Origin: Chloroflexota bacterium
Lineage (GTDB): Bacteria; Chloroflexota; Dehalococcoidia; Lucifugimonadales; JACPQL01
Assembly (NCBI GenBank): GCA_016190445.1
Contig: JACPQL010000027.1
Coordinates: 1 to 64,000 of the forward strand
DNA length: 64,000 nucleotides
Direction: 5' to 3'
Shown: positions 4,257-62,224 of the stretch, piece after piece
Numbering within the stretch: position 1 is the stretch's first letter
Layout: each line of letters starts with the position of its first letter
The notes under the pieces: generated by a model
What the model was told of the DNA's origin: nothing
Databases searched by the model: none
What the model saw: the letters and a program-made list of their open reading frames with translations, nothing else
Translations under genes and position numbers: made by a program

Positions 4257-4390
4257 CGCTCTTATCCAGAGGGGCAGAGGGACCGGCCCGACGAAGCCCG
4301 GCAACCGGTTCCGGCACGGGCAGACCAGCCCGGCGGAACGTCGGTGCCAATTCCGGCAGGCCGAAATGCAACGGCCTGGGAGATGAGAGT
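4257..4390 (+). promoter_or_regulatory. SAM-I (S-box) riboswitch
   Basis: The order of conserved S-box blocks is complete: CTCTTATCCAGAG, GGGCAGAGGGA, CCCGACGAAGCCCGGCAACC, GGTGCCAATTCCGGCAGG and the closing GAGATGAGAG. The P1 strands (CTCTTATC and GATGAGAG) pair. A rho-independent terminator follows at 4,402, and mtnA starts at 4,463. Binding of S-adenosylmethionine would favour termination, so methylthioadenosine salvage and the downstream genes would be switched on when SAM is low. Confidence 0.95.
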
Positions 4391-55891: not shown

Positions 55892-55958
55892 AACCCCGTA
55901 AGGTGGGTCTCAGAGTTACTTGGTCCTCTCTTGGCTGTGCCTAGAAAAGGGGGAAGGC

Positions 55959-56939
55959 GTGAAAACCCTTGGCGTCATTCTCGGCTTGATAGCGCTCTTG
56001 GGCGTGGCTGGCGCATGCAACAGCCCGGGTTCTCCTAGCGCTACGTCTGCCTCCCAGAATCCCCAGGTCCGGCAGTACACCCTGGTGGCGGAAAAGGTCC
56101 AGCACGAGCTGGCCCCGGGCGTAGTCGTCACTGCCTGGGGCTATAACGGTCAGGTGCCAGGCCCGGAGGTCCGCGCCAATGAGGGCGACACCGTGCGGGT
56201 GACCTTCACCAACAACCTGCCTGTCCCCACCAGCGTCCACTGGCACGGGGTGGACGTGCCCTGGAACATGGATGGCGTCCCAGGGGTGAGCCAGCAGCCG
56301 GTGAAGCCTGGGGAGACCTTCAGCTACGAATTCGTGGCCAAGCCCGCGGGTACCCGCTTCTACCACACCCACGGCTCGGGCCAGGAGGACGAGGCCTCCC
56401 AGCTCGATATGGGCCTCTATGGGCCACTCATCATCGAGCCCGCCGTCAAGAGCCAGGCCTACGACGTGGAGATGACCATCATGCTGGACGAGTGGAACAC
56501 CACCATGATGGCGGACCAACAGATGCAAATGGGTGAGACCATGGACTACGACGTCTTCACCATCAATGCCAAGGCTTGGCCTACCACGAAGCCCCTGGTA
56601 GTGAAGCCCGACCAGCGAGTCTTGCTGCGCCTCATCAACGCGGGCACCTCCACTTTCCACCCCATGCATCTCCACGGCCACTCCTTCCGGGTGGTAGCGG
56701 TAGACGGCGGCCCGGTGCCTCTTGACCAGCAGCAGGTCCGGGACACCCTGCTGGTGGCGCCTGGGGAACGATATGACATAGAGTTCGTGGCCAATAATCC
56801 CGGCGTGTGGGTCTTCCATTGCCACGAGCTGCACCACGCTGACGGCGGCATGATCATGCTGGTGCGGTACGAAGGTTATGAGCTACCCGCTGGCCAGGTG
56901 GAGCCCATGTCCCCATCTATGCCAGGTATGGGTCACTAA
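55959..56939 (+). CDS. Multicopper oxidase, lipoprotein
   Basis: 326 aa. A lipoprotein signal (VKTLGVILGLIALLGVAGAC, lipobox Cys) precedes two cupredoxin domains. Copper ligands are all present: HWHGVD and FYHTHGSG (domain 1), HPMHLHGHSF and VFHCHELHHADGGM (domain 2, with the type 1 Cys). The length is that of two-domain oxidases (laccase/CueO-like). It would oxidise Cu(I), Fe(II) or phenols outside the cell. GTG 55959 is used because it places the start at the signal peptide and has AGGGGGA upstream. Confidence 0.92.
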   Translation: MKTLGVILGLIALLGVAGACNSPGSPSATSASQNPQVRQYTLVAEKVQHELAPGVVVTAWGYNGQVPGPEVRANEGDTVRVTFTNNLPVPTSVHWHGVDVPWNMDGVPGVSQQPVKPGETFSYEFVAKPAGTRFYHTHGSGQEDEASQLDMGLYGPLIIEPAVKSQAYDVEMTIMLDEWNTTMMADQQMQMGETMDYDVFTINAKAWPTTKPLVVKPDQRVLLRLINAGTSTFHPMHLHGHSFRVVAVDGGPVPLDQQQVRDTLLVAPGERYDIEFVANNPGVWVFHCHELHHADGGMIMLVRYEGYELPAGQVEPMSPSMPGMGH

Positions 56940-58460: not shown

Positions 58461-58874
58461 ATGAAGGTACGAAGGCTCTGGTGGATTGCAGTGGCTGTTT
58501 GGGTGGTTGCTCTGGGGGCTCTGCTGGTGGTCCCCGCGCTGGCCGCGCCTTCCAGGCAAGAGGGTACCCCTGGATCCGGCGCCTACGGTGCCATGCACGC
58601 GGCGTGTGTGGCCGGGGATGTGGAGGGGATGACCGCGGCCATGGGCTCCCTCACGGAGGAGGACTGGCAGGCGATGCAGGGGCACATGGGCGGAGCAGGC
58701 ATGGGCGGGATGATGGCGGGGCAGGGCATGATGGGCGGAAGTGGGATGATGGGTGGACAGCCTGGTCAAGGCATGATGGGCGGCGGCGGAATGATGGGAG
58801 GCCCCTCAGGACAGGGGATGATGGGAGGCGGGATGATGGGCGGGTGGTCCGGGCGGACCATGATGGCGTGGTGA
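58461..58874 (+). CDS. Exported Met/Gly-rich repeat protein
   Basis: 137 aa. A signal peptide (VRRLWWIAVAVWVVALGALL, then VVPALA) is followed by a short helical region (HAACVAGDVEGMTAAMGSLT) and a C-terminal tail of repeated GMMGG units (GQGMMGGSGMMGGQPGQGMM and on). Met clusters of this kind bind Cu(I) in copper-resistance proteins. The underlying DNA (58,730-58,865) is a degenerate tandem repeat. Confidence 0.78.
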   Translation: MKVRRLWWIAVAVWVVALGALLVVPALAAPSRQEGTPGSGAYGAMHAACVAGDVEGMTAAMGSLTEEDWQAMQGHMGGAGMGGMMAGQGMMGGSGMMGGQPGQGMMGGGGMMGGPSGQGMMGGGMMGGWSGRTMMAW

Positions 58875-59278: not shown

Positions 59279-60106
59279 ATGAACGGCATAACCATCAACA
59301 TTGACCCGGTCATCTTTCACCTGGGCGGCTTCGCCCTGCGGTGGTACGGCCTCACCTTTGCCGGAGGCATCGCACTGGCCATTCTCCTGGTCTCCAGGGG
59401 TGCCAAGAGAGCGGGGCTGGACACCGGCAAAGTCGGGAACATCGCCTTGTGGGCGGTGGTGGGAGGGGTGGTGGGTGCGCGGCTGTTCCACGTGGTGGAC
59501 AGGCTCAGCTACTACGTAGCCAACCCGTCCCATATCGTCATGGTGAACCACGGAGGGCTGGCTATCTGGGGAGGGCTGGTCACCGGCGGGCTGGTGGCGC
59601 TGTTCATGGCCCGCCGGGAAGGCATCCCCGTTCTAAAGCTGGCTGACGCCACGTCTATTGGCCTGATCGCTGGGCAGATGGTGGGGAGGATCGGGTGCAT
59701 CATCAACGGCGATGCCTATGGCGGCGCCACGAGTATGCCCTGGGGGTTCATCTACACGAACCCAGGGGCCATGCTGCCGGACTCGCTCCGGGGCATCCCC
59801 ACGCACCCTTACCCGCTGTACGAAATCCTGTGGGGCATGGCGCTCTTGGGCCTTCTCCTCTACCTGCGGCGGCGGTCTCTCCCCAGCGGGGTGCTGTTCC
59901 TGACATACGTGGGGGTATATGCCCTGGGGCGGTTCGGACTGACATTCGTGCGACAGGAGGCGGTTGTCCTGTGGGGGCTCCAGCAGGCGCAGGTGGTGGC
60001 GCTGGTGGTTCTGGCGCTGGCGGCAGCGGGGGCCGCGCGTTTGGTTACGGGCTGGCCCTCTGTCACGGTAGGCCGGCGGCGTCCCGTGGCGACGCGAAAC
60101 TCATGA
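59279..60106 (+). CDS. lgt: Prolipoprotein diacylglyceryl transferase
   Basis: 275 aa, polytopic membrane enzyme that attaches diacylglycerol to lipobox Cys residues. Lgt hallmarks: FALRWYGLTFAGGIALAILL, GGVVGARLFHVVDRLSYYVA, GGLAIWGGLVTGGLVALF, the signature GRIGCIINGDAYGGATSMPW and HPYPLYEILWGMALLGLLLY. It overlaps the next gene by 4 nt (ATGA). Being within a cluster with at least three lipoproteins makes functional sense, whether or not it is the only Lgt of the cell. Confidence 0.93.
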   Translation: MNGITINIDPVIFHLGGFALRWYGLTFAGGIALAILLVSRGAKRAGLDTGKVGNIALWAVVGGVVGARLFHVVDRLSYYVANPSHIVMVNHGGLAIWGGLVTGGLVALFMARREGIPVLKLADATSIGLIAGQMVGRIGCIINGDAYGGATSMPWGFIYTNPGAMLPDSLRGIPTHPYPLYEILWGMALLGLLLYLRRRSLPSGVLFLTYVGVYALGRFGLTFVRQEAVVLWGLQQAQVVALVVLALAAAGAARLVTGWPSVTVGRRRPVATRNS

Positions 60107-60912
60107 ATAAGAATAGGGCAGGGGTGCTGTTGTCTCTGGCTTTGGTGGTCCTGGCGGCCCTGTCGGCAGGATGCGCCTCCGGTGCCAGGCCCACCCCAAC
60201 CCCCACGCCCAGGGTGTCCAGTGGAGTCCCGGTCCTGGCCTTTGACAAACGGCAGGTGGACCTGGGCACTGTGACGCGGGACCAGCAGGGAGCGGCGACG
60301 TTCCTGGTGATGAACCGGGGCGACAGGCCGCTACAGGTGGGGCCGGTGACGGTCCAGGTAGAGCAGGGGGGCGAGATAGCAGAGAGCGTGAAGGAGAACG
60401 TTCATGTGGGGCCAGGCGAGGTGTTTTTGCTCCCCATCAAGCTGGGGGACCATCCACAGCTTGGCCCCTACCACTTGCTGGTGAACGTGGCGTCCAATGA
60501 CCCAGCGACTCCCACGGCCACGCTCTCCGTGGACTTCAACGTGGTGGAGGCACCTCCACCGCCAGGGACGGGGCCTCGCCTCCGAGTGGACAAAGAGATG
60601 ATAGACATCGGCCCTGTGCCCTACGACTGGCCGCTCTACGAGGTGTTCACCCTCCGCAACGATGGTGATGCGCCGCTGGTGCTGCAAGGAAAGCCCGTGG
60701 TGCGTGTGGAGGAGGGGTGCTGACCGCCCGAGGCGGTGGTCGGTGCGACCACTCTACAGCCGGGGCAGAGCACCACCCTGGAGCTGCCCCTCTTCATGGG
60801 AATGCACACGGGAATGGGGTCGCTGCACGTTTTTGCGGTGGACGTCCGCAGCAACGACCCGGTGGAGCCGGTGAAGACCCTGCGCTGGCGCTTCACGGCT
60901 GGAGGGAGGTGA
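60103..60912 (+). CDS. Candidate selenoprotein: lipoprotein with two DUF1573-like domains and an in-frame TGA
   Basis: Read through the TGA at 60,721-60,723 this encodes about 269 aa. A lipoprotein signal (LSLALVVLAALSAGCAS) precedes two Ig-like DUF1573-type domains (VDLGTVTRDQQGAATFLVMN; IDIGPVPYDWPLYEVFTLRN). The second leads into VRVEEGC-TGA-PPEAVVGATT, and the frame then continues without interruption (TLQPGQSTTLELPLFMGMHT, VDVRSNDPVEPVKTLRWRF) to TGA 60,910. As I recall related proteins, they have Cys-Cys-Pro-Pro here, so TGA stands where Cys is expected. A hairpin with loop GUG follows (60,737-60,751). Selenocysteine is the simplest reading; a nonsense mutation or sequencing error (TGC to TGA) is the alternative. 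Conventional calling would stop at 60,723. Confidence 0.75.
60721..60751 (+). promoter_or_regulatory. Candidate bacterial SECIS element
   Basis: Right after TGA come CCGCC-CGA-GGCGG (60,724-60,736) and TGGTCG-GTG-CGACCA (60,737-60,751), two perfect stems. The apical loop G and U are nt 20 and 21 after the TGA, the same spacing as the essential GU in E. coli fdhF. Bacterial SECIS elements need a stem-loop with an early loop G about 16-37 nt after UGA, which is met. Confidence 0.6.
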
Positions 60913-60914
60913 GC

Positions 60915-61394
60915 ATGGCCCGAGGGACCCTGCGACCCCGCAGGCGGCGCTACCAGCGACGCGGTGCAGGAGGCGCCCGAAGCTCGCCGGGGCTGAAAGG
61001 CCTGGCAGTTTTCGGGGCCGTAGTTGTGGTTGTTCTGGGCGCGGCGGCTTTCTTCCTCTGGCCAGCGGTGAAACCCGCAGGAGGAGGCACCCCCGGTGCG
61101 ATAACCATCCAGCCCACAATGGCGGGCTTCTTTCCCTCTCAGATTGAAGGACGGGCTGGAGAGCCCCTCACCATTCGCCTGGTGAACAAAGACACCCAGT
61201 TCCACACCGACGGTGGCGGCTGGCACCAGTTTGCCATAGACGAGCTACGGGTGGATGAGAAGATACCCCCTGAAACGACACAAGAGGTTACCTTCACCCC
61301 CGGCGTGGCTGGGACATACCAGTTCTACTGCGACGTGTGCTGCGGCGGGCGTGAGAGCCCCTCCATGCAGGGCACCCTGGTGGTGAGGGCATGA
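60915..61394 (+). CDS. Membrane-anchored cupredoxin with CuA-like Cys motif
   Basis: 159 aa. A basic N-terminus and a single transmembrane helix (GLKGLAVFGAVVVVVLGAAA) precede a cupredoxin domain: TIQPTMAGFFPSQIEGRAGE, the ligand His in GGGWHQFAIDEL, and YQFYCDVCCGGRESPSMQGT. The last resembles the CuA loop CxxxCGxxHxxM of cytochrome oxidase II and N2O reductase, but has three Cys (CDVCC), no His, and one residue more before Met. It may be a copper or thiol redox protein. It starts 2 nt after the candidate selenoprotein. Confidence 0.8.
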   Translation: MARGTLRPRRRRYQRRGAGGARSSPGLKGLAVFGAVVVVVLGAAAFFLWPAVKPAGGGTPGAITIQPTMAGFFPSQIEGRAGEPLTIRLVNKDTQFHTDGGGWHQFAIDELRVDEKIPPETTQEVTFTPGVAGTYQFYCDVCCGGRESPSMQGTLVVRA

Positions 61395-62224
61395 CCGTGG
61401 CCAGCCGACGCGTGATAGCTGCTGTTTCGTTGCCCATCATCCTGATACTCTCTGTCGGCCTAGCATCTGGCGTGTGGGGGACCCCCGCCCGTATATTCTC
61501 CGGAACCTCTGGCCCTCTGACCTCCACTGCGGTGACCCTGCCAACCGTTGTGGTTGGGGGGCTGGCCGACGGCATTAACCCGTGCGCCTTCACGGTGCTG
61601 CTCCTGTTTGTGGCCACCATCGCCTCGCTTTATGCGGGCATGGGGAACACGGGCACAGGGTCGGTGCGGGCCAGGCTTTTCCTGTACGGTGGTGCCTTCG
61701 TCTTTGCCATTTTCGTGACCTACCTGACCATGGGGACGGGGCTGCTCAGGGCCTCCTCAGTGGTGGCACAGAACCATCTGGGTGCCAGGTTGGGGGCACT
61801 GGCCGCCCTTTTCCTGGGGCTGTGGATGCTGAAGGACTACTTCGCGCCTGGATGGGGGCCCAGGCTGACGGCGCCGGCGGTGGTGGGCAACCTGGTGCGC
61901 AGGTGGGGACAGCGGGCAACGCTGACTGGCATGTTTGGCTTGGGCGTCCTGGTGGGCCTGTGCGAGGTGCCGTGCAGCGGCGCTGTATACCTGGTCATAG
62001 TGAGTATGTTGGCACTCCAGCAGAGCTTCCTCCGCTCCTACGTGTACCTGGTCCTGTACAACGTCATGTTCGTGGTGCCGCTGGTGGCCATCCTGGCGGT
62101 GGCCTCCGCCCGGCCAGCCCTGAATCGCCTGGCACACTGGAACCTCCATCACCGGGAGGGGATGCGGCTGGCGCTGGGCGTGGGAGTGGTGGTTCTGGGG
62201 CTGGCCATCCTGGCGACGGTGTGA
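61391..62224 (+). CDS. CcdA/DsbD-type transmembrane thiol-electron carrier
   Basis: 277 aa with about six transmembrane helices after an N-terminal signal-like segment. The two membrane cysteines of the CcdA family are in DGINPCAFTVLLLF and LCEVPCSGAVYLVIV, both with the preceding proline typical of CcdA. Such proteins take electrons from cytoplasmic thioredoxin and pass them to extracytoplasmic thiols. Overlap of 4 nt with the CuA-like gene indicates one operon, so its partners are probably the two Cys/Sec-bearing proteins encoded just upstream. Confidence 0.9.
   Translation: MTVASRRVIAAVSLPIILILSVGLASGVWGTPARIFSGTSGPLTSTAVTLPTVVVGGLADGINPCAFTVLLLFVATIASLYAGMGNTGTGSVRARLFLYGGAFVFAIFVTYLTMGTGLLRASSVVAQNHLGARLGALAALFLGLWMLKDYFAPGWGPRLTAPAVVGNLVRRWGQRATLTGMFGLGVLVGLCEVPCSGAVYLVIVSMLALQQSFLRSYVYLVLYNVMFVVPLVAILAVASARPALNRLAHWNLHHREGMRLALGVGVVVLGLAILATV

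Follow-up and report, generated by a model that had tools for sequence, protein, structure and literature searches.

A predicted DUF1573-type lipoprotein of Chloroflexota with a Gly-Cys-Sec-Pro motif: evidence for a separate selenoprotein subfamily

The described DUF1573 selenoprotein and the gene under study

A selenoprotein with a DUF1573 domain and the motif UGC is tabulated in PMC9312934 and PMC13188914; both cite Zhang and Gladyshev 2007, to which the entry goes back. The latter source, an inventory of 2026, treats different positions of selenocysteine (Sec) as distinct subfamilies, of which it lists 119; its table contains no DUF1573 protein with the motif GCU. We presume, from the shared source, that the tabulated UGC protein is the one modelled by NCBIfam NF041425 (the OS_HP2 family). 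Since OS_HP2 has been described, selenoproteins as such are no novelty in this fold family. The sequence-only reading of this DNA, which knew of no selenoprotein in the family, was too broad in this respect; its statement can be kept for the GCU subfamily, which differs as set out below.

The gene considered here occupies positions 60103-60912 (forward strand) of the window, i.e., of the whole stretch of 64,000 nucleotides that was analysed. It starts with ATG at 60103, ends with TGA at 60910-60912 and comprises 269 codons if its single in-frame TGA (60721-60723, codon 207) is counted as Sec. Translation from the ATG gives the context VRVEEGC-TGA-PPEAVVGATT; 62 open codons follow this TGA, and the gene ends 2 nt upstream of the next ATG (60915), in agreement with what had been read from the sequence. 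The signal sequence (60103-60174, recognised by eye) contains a lipobox-like LSAGC, whose Cys24 (60172-60174) is conserved at 90% or more in the order-level alignment; the product is accordingly predicted to be a lipoprotein. The whole protein scores 39.4 bits against Pfam DUF1573 (PF07610; gathering cut-off 26.1), best in its first domain.

The protein has two Ig-like domains. The second (60568-60897) carries the Cys-Sec pair and matches profile A2, which was built from this domain; alone it scores 21.3 bits against DUF1573, slightly below the gathering cut-off of 26.1. Its AlphaFold2 model, computed with an alignment of 58 sequences, is all-beta and confident (pLDDT 94.4), and the nearest solved folds found by Foldseek are Ig domains of the HYDIN/VesB/PapD type, in line with a HYDIN/PapD/ASH-type Ig fold. 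The likeness to the HYDIN/VesB-type ASH/PapD-like domains concerns the fold (Foldseek E about 1e-5 to 1e-4, TM about 0.6-0.7), whereas these are structural domains and not selenoproteins; sequence and fold searches of the PDB hit structural Ig-like domains for the most part, and no close relative with a known function was among them. The first domain (60229-60543) lacks Sec and is delimited by profile A2, by Pfam matches of the DUF1573/HYDIN-like Ig type and by aligned residues. Its detection with the profile of the second domain (1.4e-14) indicates that the domain has been duplicated within the gene, the first copy being without Sec. The corresponding motif of the first domain is GGE in the window protein and GC followed by D, E, T or A in several relatives.

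It could be argued that the gene just adds one more member to the known OS_HP2 (UGC) family and that nothing new is involved. The fold family is indeed the same, and of the named selenoprotein models NF041425 comes closest: 23 of the 58 members match it at E up to 1e-3 (best 1.6e-10). However, with a curated cut-off of 100 bits in this model, the window protein reaches 25, mainly in the Sec-free first domain, and the Sec domain 12.6; no match over that cut-off was found in 400 Chloroflexota genomes. The motif is also different: the two families share a DUF1573-like domain with Sec in the loop of a Cys motif, but the review tables give UGC for OS_HP2, while UGC is absent from the window protein, which has GCU-Pro and, in addition, conserved Met and His residues. 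Sec here lies 13 residues before the conserved Pro-Gly, and the canonical CGC has its two Cys at distances of 14 and 12; the Sec of GCU thus comes one residue later than the first of these Cys. The second Sec of a sister form with two in-frame TGAs (see below) aligns with the Sec of the GCU family, and neither this alignment nor the Pro-Gly count places Sec on the first Cys, the position expected for UGC. The inventory PMC13188914, which separates subfamilies by Sec position, would file such a protein apart, its table listing no GCU DUF1573. We therefore regard membership in OS_HP2 as improbable and, given the unreached cut-off and the different place of Sec in the motif, file the gene under a new DUF1573 selenoprotein subfamily. 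In the CC-licensed papers searched, no GCU DUF1573 selenoprotein was found.

Two other known families can be compared. The canonical Cys forms of DUF1573 (e.g., L138-L142) share the Ig-like domain and the layout N-x-G ... Cys motif ... P-G; they differ in having S/T-CGCT and no TGA, and 15 residues separate N-x-G from their first Cys, compared with 20-21 from N-x-G to Sec here. The CYCXC (seleno)protein, OS_HP4 (NF041379/PF13798), is likewise a Sec/Cys family of Sec-using bacteria, and its relatives are frequent neighbours of the present genes, but its sequence is unrelated; the neighbour scanned is a Cys form with PCYCGC (83.5 bits, cut-off 90).

Conservation of the TGA and of the hairpin that follows it

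All searches were made within Chloroflexota: 197 genomes of the same order were covered and, with profile A2, about 400 genomes at the level of the class and about 400 at that of the phylum. Full-length homologues with 54-64% identity were found in nine other genomes of the order. Each of the nine has one in-frame TGA, and all nine continue past it; the sequence-only reading had named relatives that truly end at this position as an argument against itself, and none was seen among them. Over all searches, TGA stands at the aligned column in 52 Chloroflexota genomes of 30 families, the window's own included, nearly always as G-C-TGA-P, and the domain sequence runs for about 60 codons beyond it. 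The carriers include single-contig genomes that are 95-99% complete (G547, G642, G838). An extra scan of contigs added one relative, apparently from the same genome as G083.

The expectation of Cys at this column in related proteins has been borne out: four relatives (L037, L047, L050 and the second copy in L062) have TGC or TGT. In a tree of the domain from which the motif was excluded, well-supported branches force at least two exchanges between Sec and Cys. The genome G489 contains both forms in tandem (L062, G489:C135:1064-1934), with the hairpin described below in the Sec copy only. One family member (L052, G272:C95) is fused downstream of a rhodanese domain, which may point to a sulfur/selenium relay.

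In domain numbering, Asn36, the motif Gly-Cys-(Sec/Cys)-Pro, a Pro-Gly and the motif M84-H85-x2-M88-x3-H92 are conserved throughout the family. The last of these is M234-H235-x2-M238-x3-H242 in the window protein (60802-60828), downstream of the TGA; among 58 sequences its columns hold M in 53, H in 46, M in 55 and H in 57, and these residues are candidate metal ligands together with Cys206-Sec207.

In bacterial selenoprotein mRNAs the SECIS element, according to the bSECIS model, is a hairpin directly 3' of the UGA whose short apical loop, some 16-37 nt away, contains G or GU. The window has a hairpin of this kind at 60735-60753, on the forward strand: a stem of 8 bp (60735-60742 paired with 60746-60753) closes the loop GUG (60743-60745), which falls at nt 20-22 after the UGA, its GU being at nt 20-21. 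The position of the GU had been given correctly from the sequence, and nearly all apical loops of the relatives have it at nt 20-21; three sequences that have one additional codon show it at nt 23-24, and the loop of L097 is exceptional in reading GGU. Two stems had been proposed at the outset. Both can be formed, but only the second is conserved, and it is longer than the 60737-60751 originally claimed. A downstream stem of at least 5 bp is present in 56 of 56 distinct TGA sequences, while the first stem (CCGCC/GGCGG, 60724-60736) can be formed in only 7 of these 56 and is a local accident. A hairpin search carried out sequence by sequence found no GU hairpin in the four Cys sequences.

The pairing is supported by covariation. 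In 46 aligned sequences, 94.6% of cells are paired, against 74.6 +/- 1.4% in shuffles, and the covariation score is 0.578, against 0.205 +/- 0.019, a value reached by none of the 500 shuffles. Six of the eight base pairs have changed on both sides; when the partners are shifted by 1-3 columns, pairing does not exceed 67.9% and covariation does not exceed 0.245. Among the 1528 TGAs of the window (both strands), that at 60721 is the only one followed by a stem of at least 6 bp with a GU-initial loop of 3 nt at nt 20. Taken alone, the window hairpin has an unremarkable fold energy (z = -0.70); this value being non-significant, we do not use it as evidence and rely on covariation across relatives.

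These data bear on the possibility that TGA 60721 really terminates translation, or arose recently as a nonsense mutation, with decaying sequence downstream. TGA is the normal stop here, as it ends both the gene itself and the preceding lgt; on the other hand, the codon is kept in 52 genomes, the Met, His and Phe columns beyond it are strongly conserved, and the hairpin covaries. We consider termination at this codon highly improbable.

Selenocysteine machinery and the decoding of TGA 60721

The window's own assembly (G000) is a metagenome-assembled genome of 2.02 Mb in 52 contigs, 81% complete. It contains tRNA-Sec (selC) with the anticodon UCA (71.5 bits), selB (318 bits, or 348 with a second stretch included; cut-off 242) and selD (380 bits). 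The selD gene at L016 (G000:C46:1139-2059) has itself one in-frame TGA and belongs to the known Sec-containing SelD type. Thus three of the four genes whose presence had been proposed as a check were found, and selA was not found in this assembly. As the assembly is 81% complete and the same selA model matched in 22 of the 22 related genomes searched, an assembly gap would explain this most simply.

Among 49 tested carriers of the TGA, selB was detected in 41, including 20 of the 20 that are at least 95% complete; the eight without a match are all incomplete drafts. Since selB is common also where the gene was not found (21 of 29 genomes), this co-occurrence is consistent with Sec but does not discriminate.

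One could propose instead that the TGA is read as some other amino acid, through reassignment of the code or unspecific readthrough. We regard this as extremely improbable: TGA terminates the gene 60103-60912 and its neighbours, the sense residue aligned with it is Cys rather than Trp or Gly, and the genome has tRNA-Sec, selB and selD.

It follows from the comparative data that 60103-60912 almost certainly encodes a selenoprotein made by ordinary bacterial decoding, and conservation, covariation and the sel genes are all in accord with the original proposal of a SECIS-like hairpin. In this decoding the mRNA hairpin 60735-60753, shortly after UGA 60721, would direct SelB with Sec-tRNA(Sec) to insert selenocysteine at that codon, a step for which the comparative evidence is strong. 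The product would be a membrane-anchored extracytoplasmic lipoprotein whose second Ig domain bears the vicinal pair Cys206-Sec207. That both the decoding and the standing as a separate DUF1573 subfamily are correct is, we believe, very probable.

The sister form with two in-frame TGAs was found in two genomes of different families, on the minus strand in each: G200 (L068, G200:C86:1732-2055, GG-U-S-U-GVEAV) and G267 (L148, G267:C61:4883-5206, GG-U-M-U-GVATV). Its relatives L069, L149 and L150 have C-G-C-G at the U-x-U-G positions, and a stem with a GU loop at nt 20-21 follows the second TGA in both L068 and L148. We see the U-x-U form as a good double-selenoprotein candidate; it is rarer than the main GCU form, and less secure, as only two sequences with 49% identity are available.

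Gene neighbourhood, possible role and meaning

The neighbouring genes named here lie on the same strand as the selenoprotein gene. Upstream, lgt (prolipoprotein diacylglyceryl transferase, 59279-60106; Pfam LGT, 203 bits) overlaps its start by 4 nt. Downstream there is a membrane-anchored cupredoxin (60915-61394; Pfam Cupredoxin_1, 54.8 bits), weakly similar to the CuA domain of NosZ (30.5 bits against the NCBIfam model of the NosZ C-terminal region, far below the cut-off). It is followed by a membrane protein (61391-62224) that is DsbD/CcdA-like by eye (DGINPCAF ... CEVPCSG), with no Pfam or NCBIfam match at the thresholds used. The same copper-themed neighbourhood includes a multicopper oxidase (55920-56939; Pfam Cu-oxidase_3, Cu-oxidase_2, Cu-oxidase). 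A small protein of this stretch (58461-58874, forward strand) has a tail very rich in Met and Gly (MMGGSGMMGGQ...) and no Pfam or NCBIfam match. Elsewhere in the window, at 4259-4389 of the forward strand, there is a SAM riboswitch (Rfam RF00162, 79.9 bits).

At many loci the neighbours are cupredoxins (some of them similar to the CuA domains of NosZ or CoxB), COX2-cytochrome c proteins and multicopper oxidases and, further, an HMA protein, a NapH-like polyferredoxin and CYCXC-family proteins; the neighbour genes differ between lineages. Proteins with a PCYCGC motif (CYCXC family) and proteins with RPCC(S/G)N(S/P)TAFPDCNHG recur, as at L118:4102-5532 and L134:3468-4592; the latter protein, scanned in L118, has no NCBIfam match.

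On account of the Met/His motif and of the cupredoxin, multicopper-oxidase and NapH-like neighbours, we infer a membrane-anchored Cys-Sec site of copper or redox function. Cys-Sec and M-H-x2-M-x3-H may form a thiol/selenol redox site or a soft-metal site, the metal being most likely Cu(I), and it might serve the neighbouring CuA-like cupredoxins, NapH-like polyferredoxin and multicopper oxidase. We know of no metal-binding relative. A copper-linked role, as suggested by neighbours and residue conservation, is offered tentatively, as a possibility that falls short of being probable. The more specific proposal, namely a selenolate Cu(I) site (Cys-Sec with M-H-x2-M-x3-H) carried by an Ig-like lipoprotein whose task is to deliver copper to CuA-type cupredoxins or to reduce it for them, seems to us somewhat unlikely.

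The protein could instead be a general periplasmic thiol/selenol oxidoreductase or a sulfur-relay protein. This is a real possibility, if not a probable one, and is suggested by the vicinal Cys-Sec pair, the rhodanese domain fused to L052, the downstream membrane protein that appears CcdA-like by eye, and the Cys form L037, which adjoins a TlpA-like thioredoxin and a CcsA-like protein (by eye). Nevertheless, the conserved Met/His motif would be superfluous in a plain oxidoreductase, and genes for copper proteins recur close by.

If TGA is annotated as a stop, the protein would end at Cys206, and Sec, the Met/His motif and the last strands would be lost; this concerns dozens of Chloroflexota. 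The selenoproteome would gain a conserved and broad subfamily (30 families here) with an Ig-like rather than a thioredoxin-like fold, apparently a sizeable and so far undescribed branch of selenium-containing proteins in Chloroflexota. Natural Sec/Cys pairs are at hand, including one genome with a tandem pair, as is the sister form in which two TGAs stand in frame. Should the copper proposal be true, selenium would be linked to extracytoplasmic copper handling; and if the selenolate Cu(I) site is true, a copper chaperone or metalloreductase that has selenium as a ligand would be widespread among Chloroflexota.
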